Position numbers and translations under genes: made by a program
The notes under the pieces: generated by a model
What the model was told of the DNA's origin: nothing
The model's database searches: none
What the model saw: only the letters and a program-made list of their open reading frames with translations
From: Desulforegulaceae bacterium
GTDB taxonomy: Bacteria; Desulfobacterota; Desulfobacteria; Desulfobacterales; JACKCP01
Assembly (NCBI GenBank): GCA_034006035.1
Contig: JAVETN010000002.1
Coordinates: forward strand, 62,001-126,000
DNA length: 64,000 nucleotides
Direction of reading: 5' to 3'
In this document: in pieces, positions 1-19,117 of the stretch
Position numbering within the stretch: the first letter of the stretch is position 1
Layout: each line of letters starts with the position of its first letter

Positions 1-1180
1 TATGGACAAGAAGTCCTTCTGAGATAATTTCAAAAACAGTCATCCTGGGGTTTAAGCTCCCAAAGGGATCTTGAAAAACAACCTGAATTTGGGATCGGAT
101 TTCCCTTAAAAGTGAAGGCTTTAAATTATCAATTCTTTTGTTTTTAAAATAAATTTCACCCCTTGAATCAATGAGCCTTAAAAGTGAAAGACCAAGGGTT
201 GTTTTTCCTGAACCACTTTCTCCCACAATTCCAAGAGTTTCACCTTTTTTAAGTGAAAAATTTATTTTATCGCAAGCTTTGATAAAACCTTTTGTTCTTT
301 TTAAAATTCCTTTTTTAATGGGAAACCAGACCTTTAAATTTTTTGCCTCTAAAACTATTTCATCACTTAAACTCTCATCAAATCCAAAATCGTTGTCTGA
401 ACCCATGAGTTTTTTTGTATACTCATGGGAAGGATTTTCAAAAACATCTTTTGAATTTCCATACTCCAAAGCCTTTCCTTCTTTCATTACAAGGACTTTA
501 TCAGCAATGCTTTTAACAAGAAGAAGATCATGGCTTATAAAAATCATGGACATTGAAAGTCTTTGCTTTAAATCATCCAAAAGCTTTAAAATCTCAGCCT
601 GAACAGTTACATCAAGGGCAGTGGTTGGCTCATCTGCAATTAAAATATCAGGATTTTGCGCAATTGCCATTGCAATCATCACCCTTTGCCTTTGACCTCC
701 AGAAAGCTGATGAGGATATGAATCATATCTTTTTTCAGCCTCTTGAATTCCCACCATTTTCAAGAGCTCAACCACTTTTTTTCTTGTTTCTTTGATTTTT
801 TTACCGGAATGAATTAAAAAAACCTCTCCAATCTGATTGCCGATTTTATGAAGGGGATTTAAAGAGGACATGGGTTCTTGAAAAATCATTGCAATTTTTT
901 TTGTTCTCAATTTCTGAATATATGATTCAGGCATTTTTAAAAGATCTGTATTTTTATATAAAATTTCACCGCTAACCTCACAAAAAGGAGGTTTGGGCAA
1001 AAGCCCAATTATTGATTTTGCAGTAATAGACTTTCCAGAACCGCTTTCTCCAACAATTGCAAGAGTTTCCTTTTGCCTGAGTGTAAAACTAAGAGATTTT
1101 ACTGAATTAATACTTTTTCCAACCTTTTTGTTGAAACTTATATCAAGGTTTTTTATCTCTAAAATAAAATCATTTTCCAT
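1..1180 (-). CDS. yejF: YejF-like dual ATP-binding subunit of peptide ABC importer (3' part off window)
   Basis: This is a fused double ATPase that would power the YejB/YejE inner-membrane channel for peptide uptake. About 393 N-terminal residues are visible and the reading frame runs open off the window edge. The first ABC domain has Walker A GESGSGKS (residues 44-51), the signature LSGGQRQR and Walker B DEPTTALD. A second Walker A, GESGSGKTT, and the Q-loop VFQDPFGSLNP open the second domain. The ATG at 1178-1180 lies one base after the yejE stop, with GAGGGATAAA as ribosome site. It is the last visible gene of the minus-strand run. Dpp/Opp-type ATPases share this fold, but the two-domain fusion and the neighbours favour YejF. 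Confidence 0.88.
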   Translation of the reverse strand, partial: MENDFILEIKNLDISFNKKVGKSINSVKSLSFTLRQKETLAIVGESGSGKSITAKSIIGLLPKPPFCEVSGEILYKNTDLLKMPESYIQKLRTKKIAMIFQEPMSSLNPLHKIGNQIGEVFLIHSGKKIKETRKKVVELLKMVGIQEAEKRYDSYPHQLSGGQRQRVMIAMAIAQNPDILIADEPTTALDVTVQAEILKLLDDLKQRLSMSMIFISHDLLLVKSIADKVLVMKEGKALEYGNSKDVFENPSHEYTKKLMGSDNDFGFDESLSDEIVLEAKNLKVWFPIKKGILKRTKGFIKACDKINFSLKKGETLGIVGESGSGKTTLGLSLLRLIDSRGEIYFKNKRIDNLKPSLLREIRSQIQVVFQDPFGSLNPRMTVFEIISEGLLVH

Positions 1181-1181
1181 T

Positions 1182-2216
1182 TTATCCCTCAACCCTTGGA
1201 TCAAAAGCATCCCTTGCAGCTTCTCCTGTAAAAATCAAAAGACTAAGCATAAGAGATAAAGTTATAAAAGCAGAAATTCCAAGCCAGGGAGCTTGGATAT
1301 TTTCCTTTCCCTGGGCAAGAAGCTCACCAAGGGAAGGAGAGCCTGCCGGCATTCCAAATCCTAAAAAATCAAGGGAGGTAAGTGTAGTTATTGAGCTATT
1401 TAAAATAAAAGGGAAAAAAGTCATTGCAGCAATCATTGCATTGGGAAGCATATGTCTTGTCATTATTCTAAGATCTGAAACCCCTAAAGCTTTTGCAGCC
1501 ATTACATATTCAAGGTTTCTGCATCTTAAAAACTCGGCTCTTACAACATCGACAAGACTCATCCATGAAAATAAAAGCATGATAAAAAGAAGCCAGAAAA
1601 AACTTGGCTGGACAAAACCTGACAAAATAATAAGAAGATATAAAACAGGCATTCCTGACCAGATTTCAATTATTCTTTGACCTAAAAGATCGATCCTTCC
1701 TCCAAAATATCCTTGAACAGCACCGGCTGCTATTCCTATTAAAGAGCCGAAAACAGAAAGACAAAGGCCAAAAAGAACTGAAATCCTGAATCCGTAAATA
1801 AGCCTTGCTAAAACATCCCTGCCCTGATCATCAGTTCCTAGAAAATTTTCACTCCCAGGAGGGGAAGGAGCCGGGGATTTTAAATCATAATTTATTGTAT
1901 CATAGGAAAATCTTATCAAAGGCCAGATCATAAAGCCTTTTTCATTTATAAGCTCCTGAACATAAGAATCACGATAATCTGCTTCAGTTAAAAAATCTCC
2001 GCCAAAATCTGTTTCAGGATATTCAATAAAAACAGGAAAAAAAAACTTGTTTTCGTATTTAACAAAAATGGGTTTGTCATTTGCGATAAATTCAGCAAAC
2101 AAGGTAAGAACAAAAAGTATTATAAAAACTATTGAAGAATAATACCCTCTTTTGTTCTGCTTAAACAAAAGAAATCTTTTTTTTGCCATCCCAAATTTAT
2201 CGGTTTTCAAAATCAA
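1182..2216 (-). CDS. yejE: YejE-like ABC transporter permease
   Basis: Inner-membrane permease of a Yej-type peptide importer, the partner of YejB. The 344 residues match the family length. The N-terminal membrane segment ends in the family-typical IANDKP, followed by a long periplasmic loop with DFGG, then [15 protein letters not shown] and the binding-protein-dependent permease domain (about residues 140-340). The EAA loop that contacts the ATPase is near [10 protein letters not shown]. The TTG at 2216 has AAGGA just upstream and overlaps the yejB stop. An in-frame ATG at 2189 is the alternative and would match the E. coli N-terminus better. It is translationally coupled to its neighbours. 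Confidence 0.9.
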
Positions 2217-3304
2217 CCTGTCCTTGTTTCAAAATCAATTCTTGGATCAACAAGAGTGTATGTTAAGTCTGAAATTATTCTTATAAAAAGACCAAGAAGA
2301 GTAAATATATAAAGACTTCCAAACATAACTGGATAATCCCTTGTTATTGCCGACTCAAATCCTAAAAGCCCCAGACCGTCAAGAGAAAAAATAACTTCAA
2401 TTAGTAAAGAACCGCTGAAAAACATCCCTATAAACGCAGAAGGAAAACCTGCAATTATTATAAGCATTGCGTTTCTAAAAACATGACCGTAAAGAACTGA
2501 TTTTTCATCAAGACCTTTGGCTTTAGCTGTCAATACGTATTGCTTGTGAATTTCATCAAGAAAAGAGTTTTTTGTTAAAAGTGTAAGTGTGGCAAATCCG
2601 CCGATTGATAAAGACAAAACAGGAAGAAAAATATGACTTAAATAATCTTTGATTTTACCAAAAAAGCTCAATTCATCAAAATTTATGGAAGTAAGTCCTT
2701 TTAAGGGAAAAATATCAAAATAATTTCCCCCTGCAAACAGGATTATTAAAAAAACAGCAAACAAAAATACAGGAATTGCATGTCCTATTGTTATCAAGGC
2801 ACTTGTGTAAATATCAAATTTTGAGCCGTGGGTTACAGCTTTTTTTACTCCAAGGGGAATGGATACAAGATAAATTATTAAAGTACTCCAGACTCCAAGG
2901 GAAATTGAAACAGGAAGCTTTTCTTTTATAAGTGTTATTACTTTTTTGTTTTTATAAAAACTCTGTCCAAAATCAAAACTGATAAAATCCTTGAGCATTT
3001 TAAAATATCTTTGATGCAAAGGCTTGTCAAAGCCGTAAAGGATTTCAAGCTCTTTTATGAGCTGAGGATCAACTCCCCTTGACCCCCTGTATGAGGAAAG
3101 GCCTTTTGAGTCAGAAGAAAAGGTTTCCATTGATTTATCCCCTGAAACCCTTGACAATGCATTTACTTTCCCTGTTTCAAGCTTGGCTATCATTTGCTCC
3201 ACAGGCCCGCCCGGAGCCGCCTGAATAATAAAAAAATTCAGGGTGATTATCCCAAGCAAAGTTGGAACAAGCAAAAAAAGTCTTCTAAATATATAGGCTC
3301 CCAT
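2213..3304 (-). CDS. yejB: YejB-like ABC transporter permease
   Basis: Inner-membrane permease that pairs with YejE to move peptides into the cytoplasm. It has 363 residues, like E. coli YejB. Residues 1-30 form the first membrane segment, ending in [10 protein letters not shown], which is conserved at the start of YejB and DppB proteins. A variable polar insert (about 40-85) follows, then the DppB-type permease domain with the EAA loop [19 protein letters not shown]. The C-terminus ends in LVDPRI, usual for the family. It lies directly after yejA with no spacer and overlaps yejE by 4 bases. Confidence 0.91.
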
Positions 3305-5084: not shown

Positions 5085-7898
5085 TTAGTCCTCTTTTTTC
5101 GATTTGATTATAAGAAATGAAATGTTTTCCTTTAAAAGATATTGGTCGCATTTTTCCTGAACAACTTCTTTTGTAAGTGAAGAATAGTCTGAGACAATGG
5201 TTTTTGCCCATTCAAGCTGAACTTTATTTTGAAAGGAGCCGTCAAGCACAGTATTAAGCCAGTATGAATTTTGCTGAACCTGGGTTGCAATTGAACTTAA
5301 AAGTGGTTTTAAAGCCCTTTCAAACTCATCATCTGTAATTTTTTTATTTTTTAAGCTTGAAATTATATTTTTTATTTCTTTTTTTACAATTTCAGTCTTT
5401 TCAGGTGAAGTTTTTACTCCCATGAAAAGACCTCCATAATTTTCATAAACTTTTGAAGGCTGATTATATGCAAAAGGAGAATAGGCCAGGCCAAGATTCT
5501 CCCTTATATTTACCCTGAGTCTGTCATCAATAATTCTTGCACAAAGACTTAAAGCTCTTGAGTTTTCTATTGGATAAATATGATCTGTTTTAAACCCGCC
5601 AAGAACAAAAGCAGATTCTATTTTTGTATCTACAAAAATTTCTTTGTTTTTTCCCATTGGAAAACCCACAGGCTTTGGTGATAGTTGTTTAATTTTACTT
5701 CGCTTTTTATCTACGCCCAAATATTTTAAGCTAAGGTTTTCAATAACTTCTTCATCAAAATCACCAACAATAGAAACTTCAAAGGCCTGATTTTTGAAAT
5801 TATCATTAATCAATTGCTTTATATCATGAATACTTATTTTTTTTGCATCTTCATAGGTTAAAAACTCAAATCTATGATCGTTTTCCGCAAAAAAACCACT
5901 GGCATTCAAACTCAAGTTTCCATCAACTGATTTAAGCTTTTTTTCATATGAAGTTTTAAGCCTTTTCAAGGAAAGCTCATAGGCATTTTCTTTAATCCCA
6001 GGATCATTTATATAATGATAAAAAAGAAGAAACAATGTTTCAAGGTCATTTTTTGAGGAGCTGCCTGTAAAATAAAGCCTGTCTTCATCAACTCCAAACT
6101 TTAAAAAGACATCTTTATTGGAAAGGCTTATCCCAAGCTCTTCACTTGAAATGGAACTTAATTTACCAGAGTTTAAAACCCTTGAGCTTAATAAATATAA
6201 TCCTTTTTTATTTTCAGATTCAAAAGCTTTTCCCCTTCCAAAGGATGCTTTAAAAAAAACCTTATTTTTATCAAAATCTGTTTTTTTATAATTTATTATA
6301 TTATTATTTTTTAAAATTATTCTTTTAACTTCAGGTTCAAGAACAAGTTTTTCTTTTATCCCGGATTTTTGTTCAGAAATTTCAAGATAAGGAAAAACTT
6401 TGGCTGTTTTTTCATTTTTTTCTTTTGTTTTTTGTAAAAAAGCCTTTTTTGCAGACTGAGATATTTTTTCAAGAGGTTTATCTTTAATCAATACATTACC
6501 TGTTAAGGCAATAGAAAGATTGTCAAGATCCCAGATTTTATCAAAACTTTTATTTAAATCCTCAAGGGTTAAGTTTTTTACAAAAGGAGAAAAAATCTTT
6601 TGCTCATTTTCAGGCGAAACAATTATTTCACCTCCCATGGCAGAAGAAATATAAGAGGCCGCAAGTTCTTTTGTATCCCTGGTTTTAGAAGTTTCAACTC
6701 CCCTTTCAAATATCTTAATTACTTCATTTTTCACTCTTTCCAGCTCATATTGATAAAATCCGTTTTCCTTAATTTTCTTAAGCTCCAAACCTAAGATAAG
6801 AAGAGTTTTTTCCCAGTTTTCCGGACTTGTTTTACCTGAAATATTTGACCACAAAACACGATTCATAAAAGGGAAAGTAAAAGTATTTGCAGATTCAAAG
6901 GGCTGGTCACTTTTTTCAAGAAGAGAATTAAGCCTGTAATTTAAAAGAAGAGAAACCATATATTTTTTAAGCCAGCTTGATTCGTATAAAAAATTGCTGG
7001 TTTTACTTTCAATATCTTTTATAAAATTGATTGAAACACTTGTGCTGGCTGATTCCTTTTCATAATGATAAAAAGTTTGGATCCCTTTTTTATTTTTCAA
7101 TTTTCCAAAATCAGAAATTTCTTTAAAAACATTAGTTTTCTTTTTTTCTGAAAAAACTTCTTTTATAAGCTTTTCTGTTTCATCTAGATCTAAATCTCCT
7201 ACTACGGCAAGCACCATTCTTTCAGGTGTATACATTGAATTATAAAATTTCTTTAAATTTTCAGGGCCTGAACTTTCAAGAACTGATTTTTCACCTATGG
7301 GAAATCTCTTTGGTAAAATAAGACCATCAAACAAAAAATTATAAAGTTTTACCCTTGTTCTATAATCAGCAGAATCACGGGCTGACATTTCAGCAAGGAC
7401 AACTTTTCTTTCTCTTTCAACCTCTTTTTCGGGTATAAGGGCATTAAAAGCAAAATCATTTAAAATTATCAATCCCTCCTTTAATTCCTCTTTTTTACCT
7501 TCTGGAAGATAAATTTTATATACTGTTTCATCAAATCCTGTGTGTGCGTTTGTATCTGCTCCAAAATCCATTCCTATTTTCTGGAAATAATTTACAAGTT
7601 CTCCTGGGCTGAAATTTTTTGAACCGCAAAAAACCATATGCTCAAGAAAATGAGCTATTCCTCTTTCTTCTTCTGTTTCATGAATTGAGCCTGCCATTAC
7701 TCCAAGGTACAAAGCAGCCCTTTTTTCAGGAGTATTATTTGTTTTGATAAGATATCTAAAGCCATTATCCAGCCTGTTGAATTTAATTGATTGATCAAAG
7801 GGAAGATCTGTTTTTATTTCAGGCCATTTAAGCCTTTCTTCTCCAAAAGCTGAGATTGAAATAAAAAACACAGCTGCAAAAATAAAAATTTTTTTCAT
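5085..7898 (-). CDS. Periplasmic M16 (pitrilysin-family) zinc metallopeptidase, PqqL/FusC-like
   Basis: Inverzincin protease of the M16 clan. Its 937 residues match the size of PqqL and FusC, the periplasmic members. A signal peptide covers about residues 1-19 (ISISAFGE). The zinc motif HFLEH is at 83-87, with a distal Glu ligand in EVERERKVVLAE (about 159-170). The four M16 repeats follow, the last two without the zinc motif. It overlaps the TPR gene by 4 bases and abuts yejA. Known relatives cut imported proteins such as ferredoxin in the periplasm. The substrate here cannot be read from sequence. The gene context (TonB system upstream, peptide importer downstream) supports a nutrient-processing role. 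Confidence 0.88.
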   Translation of the reverse strand: MKKIFIFAAVFFISISAFGEERLKWPEIKTDLPFDQSIKFNRLDNGFRYLIKTNNTPEKRAALYLGVMAGSIHETEEERGIAHFLEHMVFCGSKNFSPGELVNYFQKIGMDFGADTNAHTGFDETVYKIYLPEGKKEELKEGLIILNDFAFNALIPEKEVERERKVVLAEMSARDSADYRTRVKLYNFLFDGLILPKRFPIGEKSVLESSGPENLKKFYNSMYTPERMVLAVVGDLDLDETEKLIKEVFSEKKKTNVFKEISDFGKLKNKKGIQTFYHYEKESASTSVSINFIKDIESKTSNFLYESSWLKKYMVSLLLNYRLNSLLEKSDQPFESANTFTFPFMNRVLWSNISGKTSPENWEKTLLILGLELKKIKENGFYQYELERVKNEVIKIFERGVETSKTRDTKELAASYISSAMGGEIIVSPENEQKIFSPFVKNLTLEDLNKSFDKIWDLDNLSIALTGNVLIKDKPLEKISQSAKKAFLQKTKEKNEKTAKVFPYLEISEQKSGIKEKLVLEPEVKRIILKNNNIINYKKTDFDKNKVFFKASFGRGKAFESENKKGLYLLSSRVLNSGKLSSISSEELGISLSNKDVFLKFGVDEDRLYFTGSSSKNDLETLFLLFYHYINDPGIKENAYELSLKRLKTSYEKKLKSVDGNLSLNASGFFAENDHRFEFLTYEDAKKISIHDIKQLINDNFKNQAFEVSIVGDFDEEVIENLSLKYLGVDKKRSKIKQLSPKPVGFPMGKNKEIFVDTKIESAFVLGGFKTDHIYPIENSRALSLCARIIDDRLRVNIRENLGLAYSPFAYNQPSKVYENYGGLFMGVKTSPEKTEIVKKEIKNIISSLKNKKITDDEFERALKPLLSSIATQVQQNSYWLNTVLDGSFQNKVQLEWAKTIVSDYSSLTKEVVQEKCDQYLLKENISFLIIKSKKED

Positions 7899-8959: not shown

Positions 8960-9632
8960 AACTCACCGGTAAATAAACAAAAGTTGACACTTTTTTCCCA
9001 TTTTTAATTCCCGGGGAAAACTTCCATTGTTTCACTGCTTTTATTACACTTTCATCAAAAACTTTTTCATGGGTTGAAGAAACTATAGTTAAATCTTCAA
9101 TCTTTCCATTTTGGTTTACAACAAATCTAAGCAAAATTTTTGCATTTTTAATTCCCATTCTTTTTGCTTCAAGAGGAAATTCAGGCTTTGAGCTTTCAAG
9201 TACAAAAGGTTTTTTATCAAGTTCTAAAAGATCAAAAATATTTGAAGGTTTATTGTCTTTATCCCTGATTTCACCATTTGAAAAAAACTTATTTTCAAAA
9301 CTTTCTTTTTTAATCATTGAATCAAGATCATATTCAAGCTTTTTGCTTTTAAAATCTTTGACTTTTACTTCTTTTTCCTGATAAAAACCCGGTTTTTTCT
9401 TTTCATTAAAAACAAAATTTTTAACCCTGGATGAAAAATTTTTTTCAAAACTTTCATTTTCTTTTGAAGCCTTTTCCTGGCTTAAATTCAAGGAAATAAG
9501 ATTGGTGGATTTTTGTTTAAATTGAGAGTTTAATTTTTTTTCAGGAAAAAGAAAGGAAAGAAGAATAAAAAAAACCAAAGAAATTATAAAACCTCCCATG
9601 GTTGAAATTAAGACAATGAACTTATTCTTCAT
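8943..9632 (-). CDS. tonB: TonB-family energy transducer
   Basis: Inner-membrane protein that spans the periplasm and passes ExbB/ExbD energy to outer-membrane receptors. It has 229 residues: a single membrane anchor at about 7-29, a charged linker rich in Lys, Glu, Ser and Phe (about 35-135) in place of the usual Pro-rich linker, and a C-terminal TonB domain (about 145-229). The domain carries FPLEAKRMGIKNAKILLRF, VNQNGKIEDL, AVKQWKFSPG and the final VSYVY strand. It lies between the ExbB-ExbD fusion (11-base overlap) and the TPR gene. The short linker may suit the TonB2 class, which works with TtpC. Confidence 0.87.
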   Translation of the reverse strand: MKNKFIVLISTMGGFIISLVFFILLSFLFPEKKLNSQFKQKSTNLISLNLSQEKASKENESFEKNFSSRVKNFVFNEKKKPGFYQEKEVKVKDFKSKKLEYDLDSMIKKESFENKFFSNGEIRDKDNKPSNIFDLLELDKKPFVLESSKPEFPLEAKRMGIKNAKILLRFVVNQNGKIEDLTIVSSTHEKVFDESVIKAVKQWKFSPGIKNGKKVSTFVYLPVSYVYKD

Positions 9633-10440
9633 TTTCCACTGAAACCGAAATACTTGATATTTTATTTTTCCTTAAAAAATCTATTAATTCAATAAGTTTT
9701 CCTGCAGCCACGTTTTTGTCAGCTGAAATAATTAAATCTTTTTTTTCAAGCTCATTGATTTTCAAAGAGATCTCCCCATAGGAAACAGGTTTACTATTTA
9801 AAAAAAGTTGATTGTTTTTATTTAAAACAATAAAATTTGCTTCTTTTCCAACACTTTGCCCGGTTGAAGCACCTGGAAGGTTTAAATCAATAGAATGATT
9901 TTCAATAAAGCTTGAAGTTACAACAAAAAAAATTAAAAGAATAAAAACCATATCAAGCAAAGGGGTTAGATTTAAATCATTAACAATGTTTTTCCCTTTT
10001 ATTTTTTCTCTCAATTTATTTTTTCCCTTTTTTACTTTTACTCTATTATCAGGGCAATACTTTCCCTTTATAAAATTACCTGCAGCTATTCCGGGAATAG
10101 CTATTACAAGCCCTGTCTGAGTGGTAGCTAGAGCAAGTCCTATTCCTGAAGCCATTATTGAAGGAGAAATATCTTTTGAAATCCAGATATTTTTAAAAAT
10201 TTCAACAATCCCGTCAATAGTTCCAAGAAGGCCTATGAGAGGAGCGATTCCAGCAAGAAAAAAAACTGTATTTAATTTTTTTAAAATCTTATTTTCAGCA
10301 TGGGCTGATTTCATTTCAATATTTTTAAACTTAATACTTAAAATAATATAAAAAATATATGACCAAAGTAAAAATGAAACAATAAACAAAAAATAAAAAT
10401 ATACCCCTGAAATCTTCCACAATTGGGTTAAAAAATTCAT
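9622..10440 (-). CDS. ExbB-ExbD fusion protein (proton channel of the TonB system)
   Basis: A single open frame of 272 residues joins two proteins that are normally separate. Residues 1-130 are a short ExbB/TolQ: first membrane segment about 15-36, then GIAPLIGLLGTIDGI (64-78) and ASGIGLALATTQTGLVIA (97-114). Residues 131-152 are a Lys-rich cytoplasmic linker. Residues 153-272 are ExbD: NDLNLTPLLDMVF, with the proton-carrying Asp at 163, one membrane helix and a periplasmic domain. The topology fits, since the ExbB C-terminus and the ExbD N-terminus are both cytoplasmic. An internal AAAGGGA (10030-10024) precedes an in-frame TTG at 10014-10012, which would give a free 130-residue ExbD. The reading frame is continuous and the cluster order is otherwise normal. 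Confidence 0.88.
   Translation of the reverse strand: MNFLTQLWKISGVYFYFLFIVSFLLWSYIFYIILSIKFKNIEMKSAHAENKILKKLNTVFFLAGIAPLIGLLGTIDGIVEIFKNIWISKDISPSIMASGIGLALATTQTGLVIAIPGIAAGNFIKGKYCPDNRVKVKKGKNKLREKIKGKNIVNDLNLTPLLDMVFILLIFFVVTSSFIENHSIDLNLPGASTGQSVGKEANFIVLNKNNQLFLNSKPVSYGEISLKINELEKKDLIISADKNVAAGKLIELIDFLRKNKISSISVSVENEE
10012..10030 (-). promoter_or_regulatory. Possible internal ribosome site and TTG start for free ExbD
   Basis: Inside the ExbB-ExbD fusion frame, AAAGGGA is followed after 9 bases by an in-frame TTG codon (residue 143). Initiation here would yield a 130-residue ExbD of normal length, starting a few residues before the conserved NDLNLTPLLD segment. This is visible in sequence; use of the site is inference, since Lys codons in AT-rich DNA often mimic ribosome sites. 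Confidence 0.35.
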
Positions 10441-12388: not shown

Positions 12389-12757
12389 TCATATTTTTTC
12401 ACCAATAAATTTTGAAAGAAACAAATCAAAATCTTTGGCATCAGCAAGGGAATTAAGAATGATAATTTCTGTTTTAGGATACTTTGCACTAAATTTTTTT
12501 TGTATTTCAGGAAGATCTTCTGTTACATGGGCACCATTAAAAAGAAAATAAGGGAAAATATAAATTTTTGTTCCCCCTTTTTTTATTTCCTCTTCCAGGG
12601 CTTCTTCTATTCCAGGTTTCCCAAATTGAAGAAAACAACAAATTCCCCTATCAATTTTATTTCCAAGGCCAGTTAATACTTTTTCAAAAAACAAAGATAC
12701 TTCCAAATTGGAATTAACTTTTCTGCTTCCATGGGCAGCAAACAAAAGTACTTTCAT
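12389..12757 (-). CDS. cbiX: CbiX-type small sirohydrochlorin/metal chelatase-like protein
   Basis: A single-domain 122-residue chelatase of the CbiX-short/SirB class, which inserts cobalt, nickel or iron into sirohydrochlorin. The N-terminus LLFAAHGSR carries the first metal-binding His (H9), and IFPYFLFNGAHVTEDLPE carries the second conserved His region. Bacterial CbiX is often a two-domain fusion of about 240-300 residues; the short form dimerises. Its start overlaps the glycosyltransferase stop by 4 bases, a pairing with no obvious functional link. It could act in siroheme, coenzyme F430-like or cobalamin synthesis; no other tetrapyrrole genes are nearby to decide. Confidence 0.82.
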   Translation of the reverse strand: MKVLLFAAHGSRKVNSNLEVSLFFEKVLTGLGNKIDRGICCFLQFGKPGIEEALEEEIKKGGTKIYIFPYFLFNGAHVTEDLPEIQKKFSAKYPKTEIIILNSLADAKDFDLFLSKFIGEKI

Positions 12758-15296: not shown

Positions 15297-15525
15297 GAAA
15301 CCAATGACTTTTAATCAAAATTAAACAAAATTTCACTTTTTTATTTCATTTTTTTATCAACTTGTATTAAACCTGCTTCAATATAGTTTGAAATTTCTTG
15401 TAAATGCTTTGAGTTAAAAAGATAAAAACCTTCAATTCAGGTTAAACTTATCCTTATTAAATGACGACAATTATTTAAGGCTAAATAATAAAGGATGTTT
15501 AAAAACTAAATAATATAAGGTGAAA

Positions 15526-18192
15526 ATGTTTACCAATCTTTTTTCCAAATGCCCTAAATGCGGAGAGTCTATTAACTCAGGCTCAACTAAATGCAGTAAG
15601 TGCAAAATTGAAATTAAATCTTCATTTGGTGTTGAAAAAGATTTTTATTCAGATCTGTTTTTAGAACTGGCTGAAAAAAACAATATTATTTCAAAAAATG
15701 AAGCTGAAATCATTTACAACGAATACAAGAGTCTTTTAAATACAGAATATCCTCAAAAAATTGAAGAAATACTCCTTAGTCAAGAAAAAACAGATATTAA
15801 AACAATTTCAAAGCTAATTGCTGCTGCACTTAGAATAATTGACAAAAATTTTTGCAGGGAAGCTGTAAAAAAAGGCCTGATCACTAAAAATCAGGCATTG
15901 GAAGCTTTAAGCATCCAAAAGAAGCTATTCAAAAATCAAAGTTTAAAATCAGCTGCTGATATTTTAAAAGAAAAAGACCATTTAAATGATTCACAAATAA
16001 AAGAAATTTTAAGTACAGTTTCAATTACCAAGCCAGACAAAGACGAAGACGACTACAAGCCCTTGACCAAACTCTGGCAGGAAGAAGATAAAAAAATGAA
16101 AATAAAAGAAATTAAAAACAAAATCAGCCCAAAAAATCTTAAAATTTGTGAACTTGGAATTAAATACAAATTCTTTTCAGCAGAAACCATTGAAAAATAT
16201 GCTTTCCAATGGGCAAAAGACCCTTTATCAAAAGATCTTGATTTTATAGATTTTATTGAAACAAAAGGGCTTATTGACAAAAATAAACGGATTCTTCTCA
16301 ATATTCACTGTGAATACCAAAATCTCAAAAAATCAGATATAGAGTTTTTAAAGCTTGGTATTTTATACAAATTTATAACAAAAAAAAATGCTGAAGCCGT
16401 ATTTAAAAAACAAAACTCAATATTTAAGGAGCAATACAAACTAATTCCTGTATGTAAAATCCTTTATAATAACAATCTTATTACAAAATCTCAGATCAAA
16501 GAAATTCTTTCAGAACAAAACAGAAAAGGACTTGCCCAAAAGTTAAAATCTGATCCTGATTTAATCAATGAAAATTCATCCACCAATAAAAAATCAGAAG
16601 AAAACCCTTTAAATTCAGGATTTGCATCAAAAGAAGAGATTCAGATTGAAATCTCAAATGACTCCATGAAGGCTCTTCTTTACCCCCTGCCCAAAAAAAT
16701 TAAAGTTGAAGACATAAAATCAGTTTTAGCTGAAAAAGGTGTCCAATACGGAGTTCTAAGCGATGATCTGATTCAGGTTTTCATCAATAAAAACCCTGAT
16801 ACCCCAATTGAAGTGGCAAGCGGAAGTCCTCCTGTTGAACCTGTAAATTCAGAAATCAAATGCCATTTTTCACAAAACTACCTCAACGTGGGAAATGTTG
16901 ATGAACAAGGGAATATCGATTTTATGGACAGAGGTGAAATTCCTGTTGCAGAACCAGGACAGCTCCTGGCAGAAAAGATACCCCTGAAAAACGGTAAAAA
17001 CGGATTGGATATTTTTGGTAATCCAATCCTGGTGGAAGAAGCTCAAGACTGTTTTATTGAAGCAGGCCAGGGAACAAGATTAGACGAAACAGAGAACAAA
17101 ATATATGCCATAGAAAAAGGACAGCCCCATATTTCAATTGATGGAAAAGTTTCTGTATTTAACACCCACGAAATAAAAGGTGATGTTGACTTTAACACAG
17201 GTCATATAGAATTTGACGGAAATATAATTATCCACGGAAGCATAAAGCCGGGATTCAGAGTATCTGCAAATGATATCACTGCAAAATCTGCAATGGATGC
17301 CATTATAAAATCAAGGGGCCAGGTTGAAATTAAAAATGGAATTAACGGCGGTAAAATCTTTGCCCAGCAAGGACTTTCAGCTAAATTTACAAACCAGGCT
17401 GAAATAACAGCATGCGGAAATGTTAATATTGAAAAAGAAATCCTTGAGTCAAAAATAAAAACAAGTGGGCTGGTTACTGTTAAATCAGGGAGAATAATAT
17501 CTTCCCTTGTTTCTGCAAAAGGAGGAATTGACTCAAGGCACATAGGAACAGAAGTTTCAACACCTTCAATAATTGAAATAGGCAAAGATTCATACCTTGA
17601 AAAAATCCTGGCACCCTACCTTGCAAGTCAGAAAAACATTGATTCTGAAATTAATAATTTAAAAGAAGAAATAGCTTTAGTCTATGCCAAGGAAAAACAA
17701 AGCCATATAGAAATTGCCAAAAAAGCCCAGGTTCAGGACAAAGCATCCCAGGCTCTAAAACAGTTACGCGAGCATTATGAGCTTGTTTCCGGATCAGTAA
17801 AACCAAAAACAGTAAATGAGATCAAATCAAAAATAGATGAATTATCTTTAAAAATTAAAAACACTGAAAAAACCATAGACTCTTTATTCCAATCTCAGGA
17901 TGAATATAAAAACATTCTTTCAGGGCATTCATCAAAGCTTAAAACTTTGGAAGAAAATAAAATCAAAATTCTAGGGCAAATTGAATCAATAAAAAATTAC
18001 GATAATTCAATAGAACCATCCCCTGTATTAATTGTTCACGGAACAATAGAAAAAGGCACCAAAATTTTTGGTCCAAACTCTGTCTGGGAAGTAAATGAAA
18101 CTTCTAAAAACATAAGAATTTCAGAAATAACAACAACCGATGAGGCCGGAAATAAGATTTACTTTCTAAAAAAAGATAAAAACAACAAATAA
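15526..18192 (+). CDS. fapA: FapA/DUF342-family protein with N-terminal zinc ribbon and helical repeats
   Basis: A large cytoplasmic protein (888 residues from this ATG). A zinc ribbon opens it, with pairs CPKCGE and CSKCKI near residues 9-26. A middle section (about 30-370) repeats a helical pattern of the type KGLITKNQALEALSIQKKL, GIKYKFFSAETIEKYAF and LGILYKFITKKNAEAVF. The C-terminal half is DUF342: GVLSDDL, VASGSPPVEP, repeated beta-helix stretches such as VSVFNTHEIKGDVDFNTGH, a coiled coil (about 700-800) and a final beta segment. DUF342/FapA proteins affect polar flagellum placement and surface signalling. The ATG follows AAGG by 5 bases; a GTG at 15520 is the alternative. No adjacent flagellar gene. 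Confidence 0.8.
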   Translation: MFTNLFSKCPKCGESINSGSTKCSKCKIEIKSSFGVEKDFYSDLFLELAEKNNIISKNEAEIIYNEYKSLLNTEYPQKIEEILLSQEKTDIKTISKLIAAALRIIDKNFCREAVKKGLITKNQALEALSIQKKLFKNQSLKSAADILKEKDHLNDSQIKEILSTVSITKPDKDEDDYKPLTKLWQEEDKKMKIKEIKNKISPKNLKICELGIKYKFFSAETIEKYAFQWAKDPLSKDLDFIDFIETKGLIDKNKRILLNIHCEYQNLKKSDIEFLKLGILYKFITKKNAEAVFKKQNSIFKEQYKLIPVCKILYNNNLITKSQIKEILSEQNRKGLAQKLKSDPDLINENSSTNKKSEENPLNSGFASKEEIQIEISNDSMKALLYPLPKKIKVEDIKSVLAEKGVQYGVLSDDLIQVFINKNPDTPIEVASGSPPVEPVNSEIKCHFSQNYLNVGNVDEQGNIDFMDRGEIPVAEPGQLLAEKIPLKNGKNGLDIFGNPILVEEAQDCFIEAGQGTRLDETENKIYAIEKGQPHISIDGKVSVFNTHEIKGDVDFNTGHIEFDGNIIIHGSIKPGFRVSANDITAKSAMDAIIKSRGQVEIKNGINGGKIFAQQGLSAKFTNQAEITACGNVNIEKEILESKIKTSGLVTVKSGRIISSLVSAKGGIDSRHIGTEVSTPSIIEIGKDSYLEKILAPYLASQKNIDSEINNLKEEIALVYAKEKQSHIEIAKKAQVQDKASQALKQLREHYELVSGSVKPKTVNEIKSKIDELSLKIKNTEKTIDSLFQSQDEYKNILSGHSSKLKTLEENKIKILGQIESIKNYDNSIEPSPVLIVHGTIEKGTKIFGPNSVWEVNETSKNIRISEITTTDEAGNKIYFLKKDKNNK

Positions 18193-18289: not shown

Positions 18290-18361
18290 CCCCCACCAGG
18301 ATCAACCAGATGACTCTTTAACCTAAAAATTTTATTTTATTTGCGGAGCTGCTCTCTTATC

Positions 18362-19117
18362 ATGAAAAAAAACAAAACCAAACTAAGTGCCAGCCTTGAA
18401 GATTATCTTGAGACAATTTATCAGGTTGTATGCCAAAAACAGGCTGCAAGAGCAAAAGATATTGCAACAAGACTTAAAGTCAACAACTCATCAGTTACCG
18501 GAGCCCTTCGCACCCTGGCTGGAAAAGGACTTGTAAACTATGCCCCATACGATCTTATAACCCTTACTCCTTCAGGAACTGAAATTGCCAAAGATATTAT
18601 AAGAAGACATTTGGCATTAAAAAATTTTTTCACAAAAATTCTATACGTAAACGAAAATACTGCAGAAGAAGCTGCCTGCAAAATGGAACATGATGTTCCA
18701 AAAGAAATCCTTGAAAAACTTATTTTGTTTGTTGATTTTATCCAGATCTGCCCAAGGGGAGGAGAAGGGTTAATCAAAGGTTTTACAAAACATTGTGAAG
18801 AGTCAATTCTTACAGGAGACTGCGAAAACTGTGTTAATATCTGCCTAGAATCATTAAAGCAAAAAAAGAAAATTTACAATAAATACAATGAAAATCCTAT
18901 CCTGCTAAAAGAGATGAAGAAAAATGACCTCGGTAAAATTTCAGAAATAAACAAAAACTCATCTGCCTTTCAAAAATTTATGGAAATAGAAGCAGGCAGG
19001 GGCTCAATAATCCAGGTTATTGAAAAAGACAACCAGTCAATTCTCATAAAAACAAAGGGCTATAATCTCACCATAAGAGGAGATGAGGCGGACAATATTA
19101 AAATTTTACCCTATTGA
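18362..19117 (+). CDS. DtxR/MntR-family metal-dependent regulator with FeoA-like C-terminal domain
   Basis: A 251-residue metalloregulator. The winged helix is at about 1-65 (LSASLEDYLETIYQV, AKDIATRLKVNNSSVTGALRTL). The metal-binding and dimer domain follows (RRHLALKNFF, ACKMEHDVPKEILEKL), giving the usual His, Glu and Cys/Met ligands. A Cys-rich stretch (CPRGGEG to CENCVNIC, about 137-165) and a FeoA/SH3-like domain (about 190-250) complete it. It would sense Fe2+ or Mn2+ and repress uptake genes. No feo or mnt genes are close by. The ATG at 18362 is preferred; an in-frame TTG lies at 18341. It overlaps the reading frame of the next gene by its stop. Confidence 0.85.
   Translation: MKKNKTKLSASLEDYLETIYQVVCQKQAARAKDIATRLKVNNSSVTGALRTLAGKGLVNYAPYDLITLTPSGTEIAKDIIRRHLALKNFFTKILYVNENTAEEAACKMEHDVPKEILEKLILFVDFIQICPRGGEGLIKGFTKHCEESILTGDCENCVNICLESLKQKKKIYNKYNENPILLKEMKKNDLGKISEINKNSSAFQKFMEIEAGRGSIIQVIEKDNQSILIKTKGYNLTIRGDEADNIKILPY

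Follow-up and report, generated by a model that had tools for sequence, protein, structure and literature searches.

Motors of the ExbB/ExbD class have a 5:2 stoichiometry (PMC12905483). How can such a motor be built when ExbB and ExbD are parts of one polypeptide? This question is raised by a gene in the stretch of DNA analysed here (the window, 64,000 nucleotides from a Desulforegulaceae bacterium). In this gene exbB and exbD form a single frame directly downstream of a gene for a TtpC-like ExbB paralogue, and the genes for TonB and a TPR protein follow (Table 1). The fusion bears on two questions, namely the role of TtpC in the motor and the extent of rotation.

Table 1. Positions of the features discussed (window coordinates unless a locus is given)
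Feature	Positions	Strand	Remark
exbB-exbD fusion gene, 272 aa, ATG to TAA	9622..10440	-	single frame, PF01618 + PF02472
ExbB part, residues 1-128: TM1 ~13-38, TM2 46-88, TM3 93-128	10057..10440	-	short TM1-TM2 loop
Linker, residues 129-157	9970..10056	-	Lys-rich, predicted disordered (pLDDT ~40-54)
ExbD part, residues 158-272 and stop: TM4 158-182, periplasmic domain ~200-268	9622..9969	-	
D163, equivalent of the essential ExbD Asp	9952-9954	-	in TM4
AAAGGGA, candidate internal Shine-Dalgarno (SD)	10024..10030	-	-5.3 kcal/mol duplex with anti-SD
TTG codon 143, candidate start of a free 130-aa ExbD	10012..10014	-	fits ExbD N-termini of relatives
TtpC-like ExbB paralogue, 389 aa	10437..11606	-	periplasmic coiled coil + MotA_ExbB, complete cytoplasmic loop; TtpC profile 237 bits
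TtpB/DUF3450-like protein, 227 aa	11593..12276	-	profile of positional homologues 56 bits
TonB, 229 aa	8943..9632	-	PF03544 E 5e-18
TPR protein in TtpD position, 354 aa	7895..8959	-	
M16 peptidase	5085-7898	-	downstream of the TPR gene
Fusion, then separate exbD, genome G775	L189 3672-5195		
Fusion, then separate exbD, genome G776	L191 (G776:C282) 733-2254		
Unfused short-loop ExbB beside TtpC, genome G431	L194 3581-4090		positions of the reverse complement

A single frame for ExbB and ExbD

The first-pass annotation had placed ExbB and a complete ExbD in one frame, and both Pfam domains are indeed found in the 272-aa ORF above their cut-offs. More specifically, MotA_ExbB (PF01618) covers residues 41–127 (E 5e-18, 65.5 bits against a cut-off of 22.9) and ExbD (PF02472) covers residues 155–270 (E 1.2e-24, 87.2 bits, above the curated cut-off). 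The NCBIfam equivalog models exbB2 (TIGR02805, 45.4 bits) and ExbD_2 (TIGR02804, 61.7 bits) score below their cut-offs of 135.35 and 123.45, respectively. Both remaining frames over the exbB/exbD junction are crowded with stops and hold no hidden split reading. Given these stops, nothing points to a frameshift here, and a frameshift or assembly split was rejected.

In an alignment with relatives, P67, T74, T107, P116 and N122 of the ExbB part and D163 of the ExbD part are retained. All five ExbB residues fall on their counterparts in an alignment to solved ExbB; the channel Thr is present in both TM2 (T74) and TM3 (T107) of the three-helix ExbB part. In E. coli ExbB the Pro, Thr and Asn are pore and ExbD-contact residues (PMC12215075), and the same study describes their roles and that of the ExbD Asp. 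The exbB-exbD fusion is confirmed as real in the sequence, and its motor residues are intact.

The ExbB part had also been called trimmed. This is correct for the cytoplasmic loop between TM1 and TM2, which according to the alignment lacks about 65 residues that most relatives from the order have, and incorrect for the C-terminus, which is not trimmed. It is important to note that an unfused ExbB of genome G431, where a stop lies between exbB and exbD, has an equally short loop; the idea that the short loop is a consequence of fusion was dropped for this reason. Leu (L102) at the TM3 Glu position was likewise dropped as a functional mark, since the ExbB proteins of other TtpC operons have E, Q, K, R, M, I, S or V there.

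The helix and linker boundaries in Table 1 are those of an AF2 model with a mean pLDDT of 73. The C-terminal part of the model has an ExbD-like periplasmic fold, for which Foldseek matches 8pek, 8p9r and 8vgc. Judged from the model, a four-helix topology consisting of three ExbB helices, a disordered linker, the ExbD transmembrane helix and the periplasmic ExbD fold is plausible, in agreement with the first-pass view that the topology fits.

The ORF is unusual. Among the matches listed for the order (389 sampled genomes) and the phylum (395 genomes), all others that include both halves are interrupted by at least one stop. In the open-access literature searched, no ExbB-ExbD or TolQ-TolR fusion is described. 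In unfused relatives an ExbB of about 200 aa is followed by a stop and then by ExbD, often in the same frame; 76 of 79 unfused pairs share one frame, a proportion skewed by the way in which the loci were collected. With this layout, the loss of a single stop makes a fusion, and equally one wrong base mimics one. The fusion of the window is known from one assembly, which has no close relative, and a single substitution there could conceal a stop. Could a sequence or assembly error mask the stop of genes that are truly separate? One wrong base would be enough, as in unfused relatives a stop lies in frame at the same place, and the closest relatives, which have separate exbB and exbD genes and proteins only ~30–40% identical to those of the window, are too distant for a base-by-base comparison. 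However, such an error would need a rare consensus substitution, the signature of a frameshift is absent, and conserved fusions in another family show that the fused state is real elsewhere. We regard an error as very unlikely.

Fusions in the GTDB family of NP119

The first-pass annotation had proposed that relatives be searched for the same fusion. The raw window protein as a query gave no match in the named genomes; an alignment query succeeded. In this alignment-based scan, 80 loci were found, and in one of them (L114) ExbB and ExbD share a frame. This locus belongs to the MAG 'Deltaproteobacteria bacterium NP119' (also G774), in which a fusion of 349 aa lies directly after TtpC. Two further genomes of NP119's GTDB family, G775 and G776, have the same fusion at 59% identity; by ORF reading and Pfam each of them is 371 aa long and again directly after TtpC. 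In a fourth member of the family exbB and exbD are separate. G775:C5 and G776:C228 seemed to hold second fusions, which were rejected, as stops were found between the halves.

The fusions of this family share with the window protein the order of three ExbB helices, linker and ExbD in one ORF after TtpC. Unlike the window protein, to which they are 26–30% identical, they have a complete cytoplasmic loop and longer linkers. Between G775 and G776 there are no indels in the fusion. dN is 0.035 and dS 0.47 in the ExbB half (ratio ~0.075), and 0.029 and 0.35 in the ExbD half (ratio ~0.08). The linker has a dN of 0.22 and a dS of 0.54 (ratio 0.41) at 62% identity. On this comparative evidence ExbB-ExbD fusions are natural, and the fused frame is maintained by selection in NP119's family, because indels are absent and dN/dS is ~0.08 in both halves.

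In the ML tree the window fusion stands apart from the NP119-family fusions, and two changes are needed. A single clade of fusions is not rejected by the AU test (p 0.24), and the branch of the window protein is very long (1.99), which may reflect relaxed constraint. Because of the AU result and this long branch, an independent origin of the two groups is likely and not more than that. Searched against plasmids, the NP119 fusion had only distant matches (<60% identity); where these are annotated, ExbB and ExbD are listed as separate genes, and four matches are without annotation. All fusions adjoin TtpC, as do 79 of the 115 unfused pairs in the sample, and a statistical link between fusion and TtpC was discarded as not significant in this sample.

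A possible way to build a 5:2 motor from a fused subunit

Which other subunits are available to the fusion? The window's genome (97.7% complete) encodes five proteins of the ExbB family. Besides the fusion these are TolQ, TtpC and two proteins of 265–270 aa, which we regard as MotA-like. Of the ExbD family only TolR and the fusion are present. This whole-genome inventory of both families contains no free exbB or exbD for the TonB2-type system, and the possible donors of extra ExbB-type subunits are only TtpC, TolQ and the two MotA-like proteins. TtpC is encoded in the same operon as the fusion and has a complete ExbB-type domain and loop. The first-pass annotation had recognized the TtpC-like paralogue next door, as the TtpC profile confirms, and had proposed that it adds ExbB-type subunits; TtpC is indeed the obvious source of these. 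The sole Plug-domain TonB-dependent receptor found in the same genome is encoded at L196 1360–3303 (G000:C7), and the permease fragment adjoining it looks FecCD-type by eye.

The best explanation, to which we give a probability of about 0.5, is that loss of the exbB stop fused exbB and exbD and that the single-chain subunit forms a mixed pentamer with TtpC. Two adjacent in-frame genes of a TonB2-type operon would have merged once the stop codon was lost. The product would be one membrane protein with four helices, in which a flexible linker in the cytoplasm joins the three helices of ExbB to the pore helix of ExbD, and the periplasmic ExbD domain comes last. As a 5:2 motor holds only two ExbD helices, the fused subunits would fill no more than two places in the five-membered ring. 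The remaining positions would most likely be taken by TtpC, giving TtpC3:fusion2, or TtpC4:fusion1 together with one free ExbD. A mixed pentamer of TtpC and fusion is favoured because the list of possible donors is so short. The motor would drive the TonB of the operon, probably for the single Plug-domain receptor of the genome. We infer that the full-length fusion protein is made, that the pentamer is mixed and that it has the stoichiometry given; if this is true, it would be the differently built motor that the first-pass annotation envisaged.

A ring made only of fusion subunits would be in line with 1:1 synthesis from one gene. In such a 5:5 homo-pentamer two ExbD helices would be in the pore, three would be displaced or degraded, and TtpC would be employed otherwise; its periplasmic domain could act outside the ring. 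Three surplus ExbD helices with their periplasmic domains would, however, crowd the complex, and TtpC has a complete ExbB-type channel domain. This arrangement seems highly improbable to us. The fusion might also be a polyprotein that is cut in the exposed linker to give an ordinary ExbB/ExbD (plus TtpC) complex. Linker residues 129–157 are lysine-rich and predicted to be disordered, but no cleavage motif was identified, the 1:1 ratio would persist after cleavage, and the linker diverges fast between G775 and G776 (62% identity). We consider cleavage unlikely.

Another possibility is that the gene has two products, the fusion and a free ExbD started at TTG143, with one fused and one free ExbD per motor and TtpC filling the ring. 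The internal AAAGGGA-N9-TTG pointed out in the first-pass annotation is present: the SD-like sequence lies 9 nt before an in-frame TTG exactly at the ExbD N-termini of relatives, and TTG143 leaves 130 aa. It does not exceed chance. Of 505 start codons inside genes of the window, 37 (7%) have a duplex as good or better, and TTG226 of the fusion gene is a stronger site (−8.6 kcal/mol). Moreover, Lys-Gly-Lys codons yield AAGGGAAA-like strings anyway, and three of these are in the linker region. By itself, the internal start at TTG143 is weak and no better than chance. What raises the idea is the NP119 family. Where ExbD begins, the fusion of NP119 (G774) has an internal ATG and a GGAG (−6.6 kcal/mol); in G775 and G776 the linker is without an internal start, and a separate exbD of 133–151 aa comes immediately after the fusion. 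At the sequence level these fusions, with an internal SD and ATG or with a separate exbD, strengthen both halves of the first-pass reading, the natural fusion and the option of a free ExbD. Tandem exbD genes in several TtpC operons also speak for two products. Taken together, we find a dual-product gene rather doubtful in the window. The first-pass proposal that free ExbD could repair the stoichiometry is not supported in that form: a 1:1 fusion is short of ExbB, and free ExbD alone makes the shortage worse. As the shortage is of ExbB, free ExbD would be useful only if few fused subunits (one) enter each ring.

Several TtpC-type operons (L109, L112, L119, L132, L137, L151, L155 and L159) have two consecutive exbD genes, which suggests ExbD heterodimers.

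The fusion would also have a mechanical consequence. In current models of Ton and Tol, the extent of the assumed rotation is left unspecified; the models are extrapolated from MotAB, without a direct test (PMC12905483). A natural tether of ~29 disordered residues between ring and rotor would limit the relative turning of ExbD and the ring. It is possible, and we say this tentatively, that the single-chain subunit and TtpC form a ring with a built-in 2:3 (or 1:4) ratio in which the tether forbids unlimited rotation of ExbD. If this is true, TonB would be energised by such a ring via limited turning or a reciprocating motion. Because the 1:1 gene forces the extra ring subunits to come from elsewhere, a concrete role can be proposed for TtpC. 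The fusions of the two groups, of which one shows measured purifying selection, are natural constructs for structural and crosslinking tests, and the joined parts of this proton-driven motor provide a natural way to test motor assembly and free rotation in outer-membrane nutrient uptake.

The operon and known TonB systems

In the window the genes overlap by 14 nt (TtpB/TtpC), 4 nt (TtpC/fusion) and 11 nt (fusion/TonB). The TtpB-like first gene product has no Pfam match. A profile built from the genes at this position in relatives, one of which (in L195) matches DUF3450, gave it 56 bits compared with 8 bits for the next window ORF. Elsewhere in the window, a gene for a CbiX-type chelatase (12389–12757) lies just upstream of the TonB operon on the same strand, a DtxR-type iron-dependent repressor with a FeoA domain is encoded at 18341–19117, and a large FapA-type protein of 890 aa at 15520–18192.

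In E. coli ExbB-ExbD (PDB 6TYI, 9ddo; PMC12215075) both folds, the channel Thr, Pro and Asn and the Asp of ExbD are the same as in the window protein. The latter differs in the covalent link between ExbB and ExbD, the short TM1-TM2 loop, the lack of a separate ExbB, and Leu instead of Glu in TM3, a variable position in TtpC-type ExbB.

The six-gene TonB2 operon of Vibrio has the order ttpB-ttpC-exbB-exbD-tonB-ttpD (PMC6957404). The window operon shares with this system (ttpB2-ttpC2-exbB2-exbD2-tonB2-ttpD2) the gene order and, with a putative TtpB (DUF3450-like) as first gene, all six roles, including the TtpC paralogue and the TPR last gene. In contrast to Vibrio, the TtpB-like protein of the window has diverged beyond the reach of the Pfam DUF3450 model, there is an M16 peptidase gene after the TPR gene, and separate exbB and exbD genes, a TonB2-type trait, are absent. 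By its gene content and order the operon is of the TonB2 type (TtpC-containing), with the fusion in the place of separate exbB and exbD. We see in it a variant form of the TtpC-type TonB system already known, and another family offers conserved parallels.
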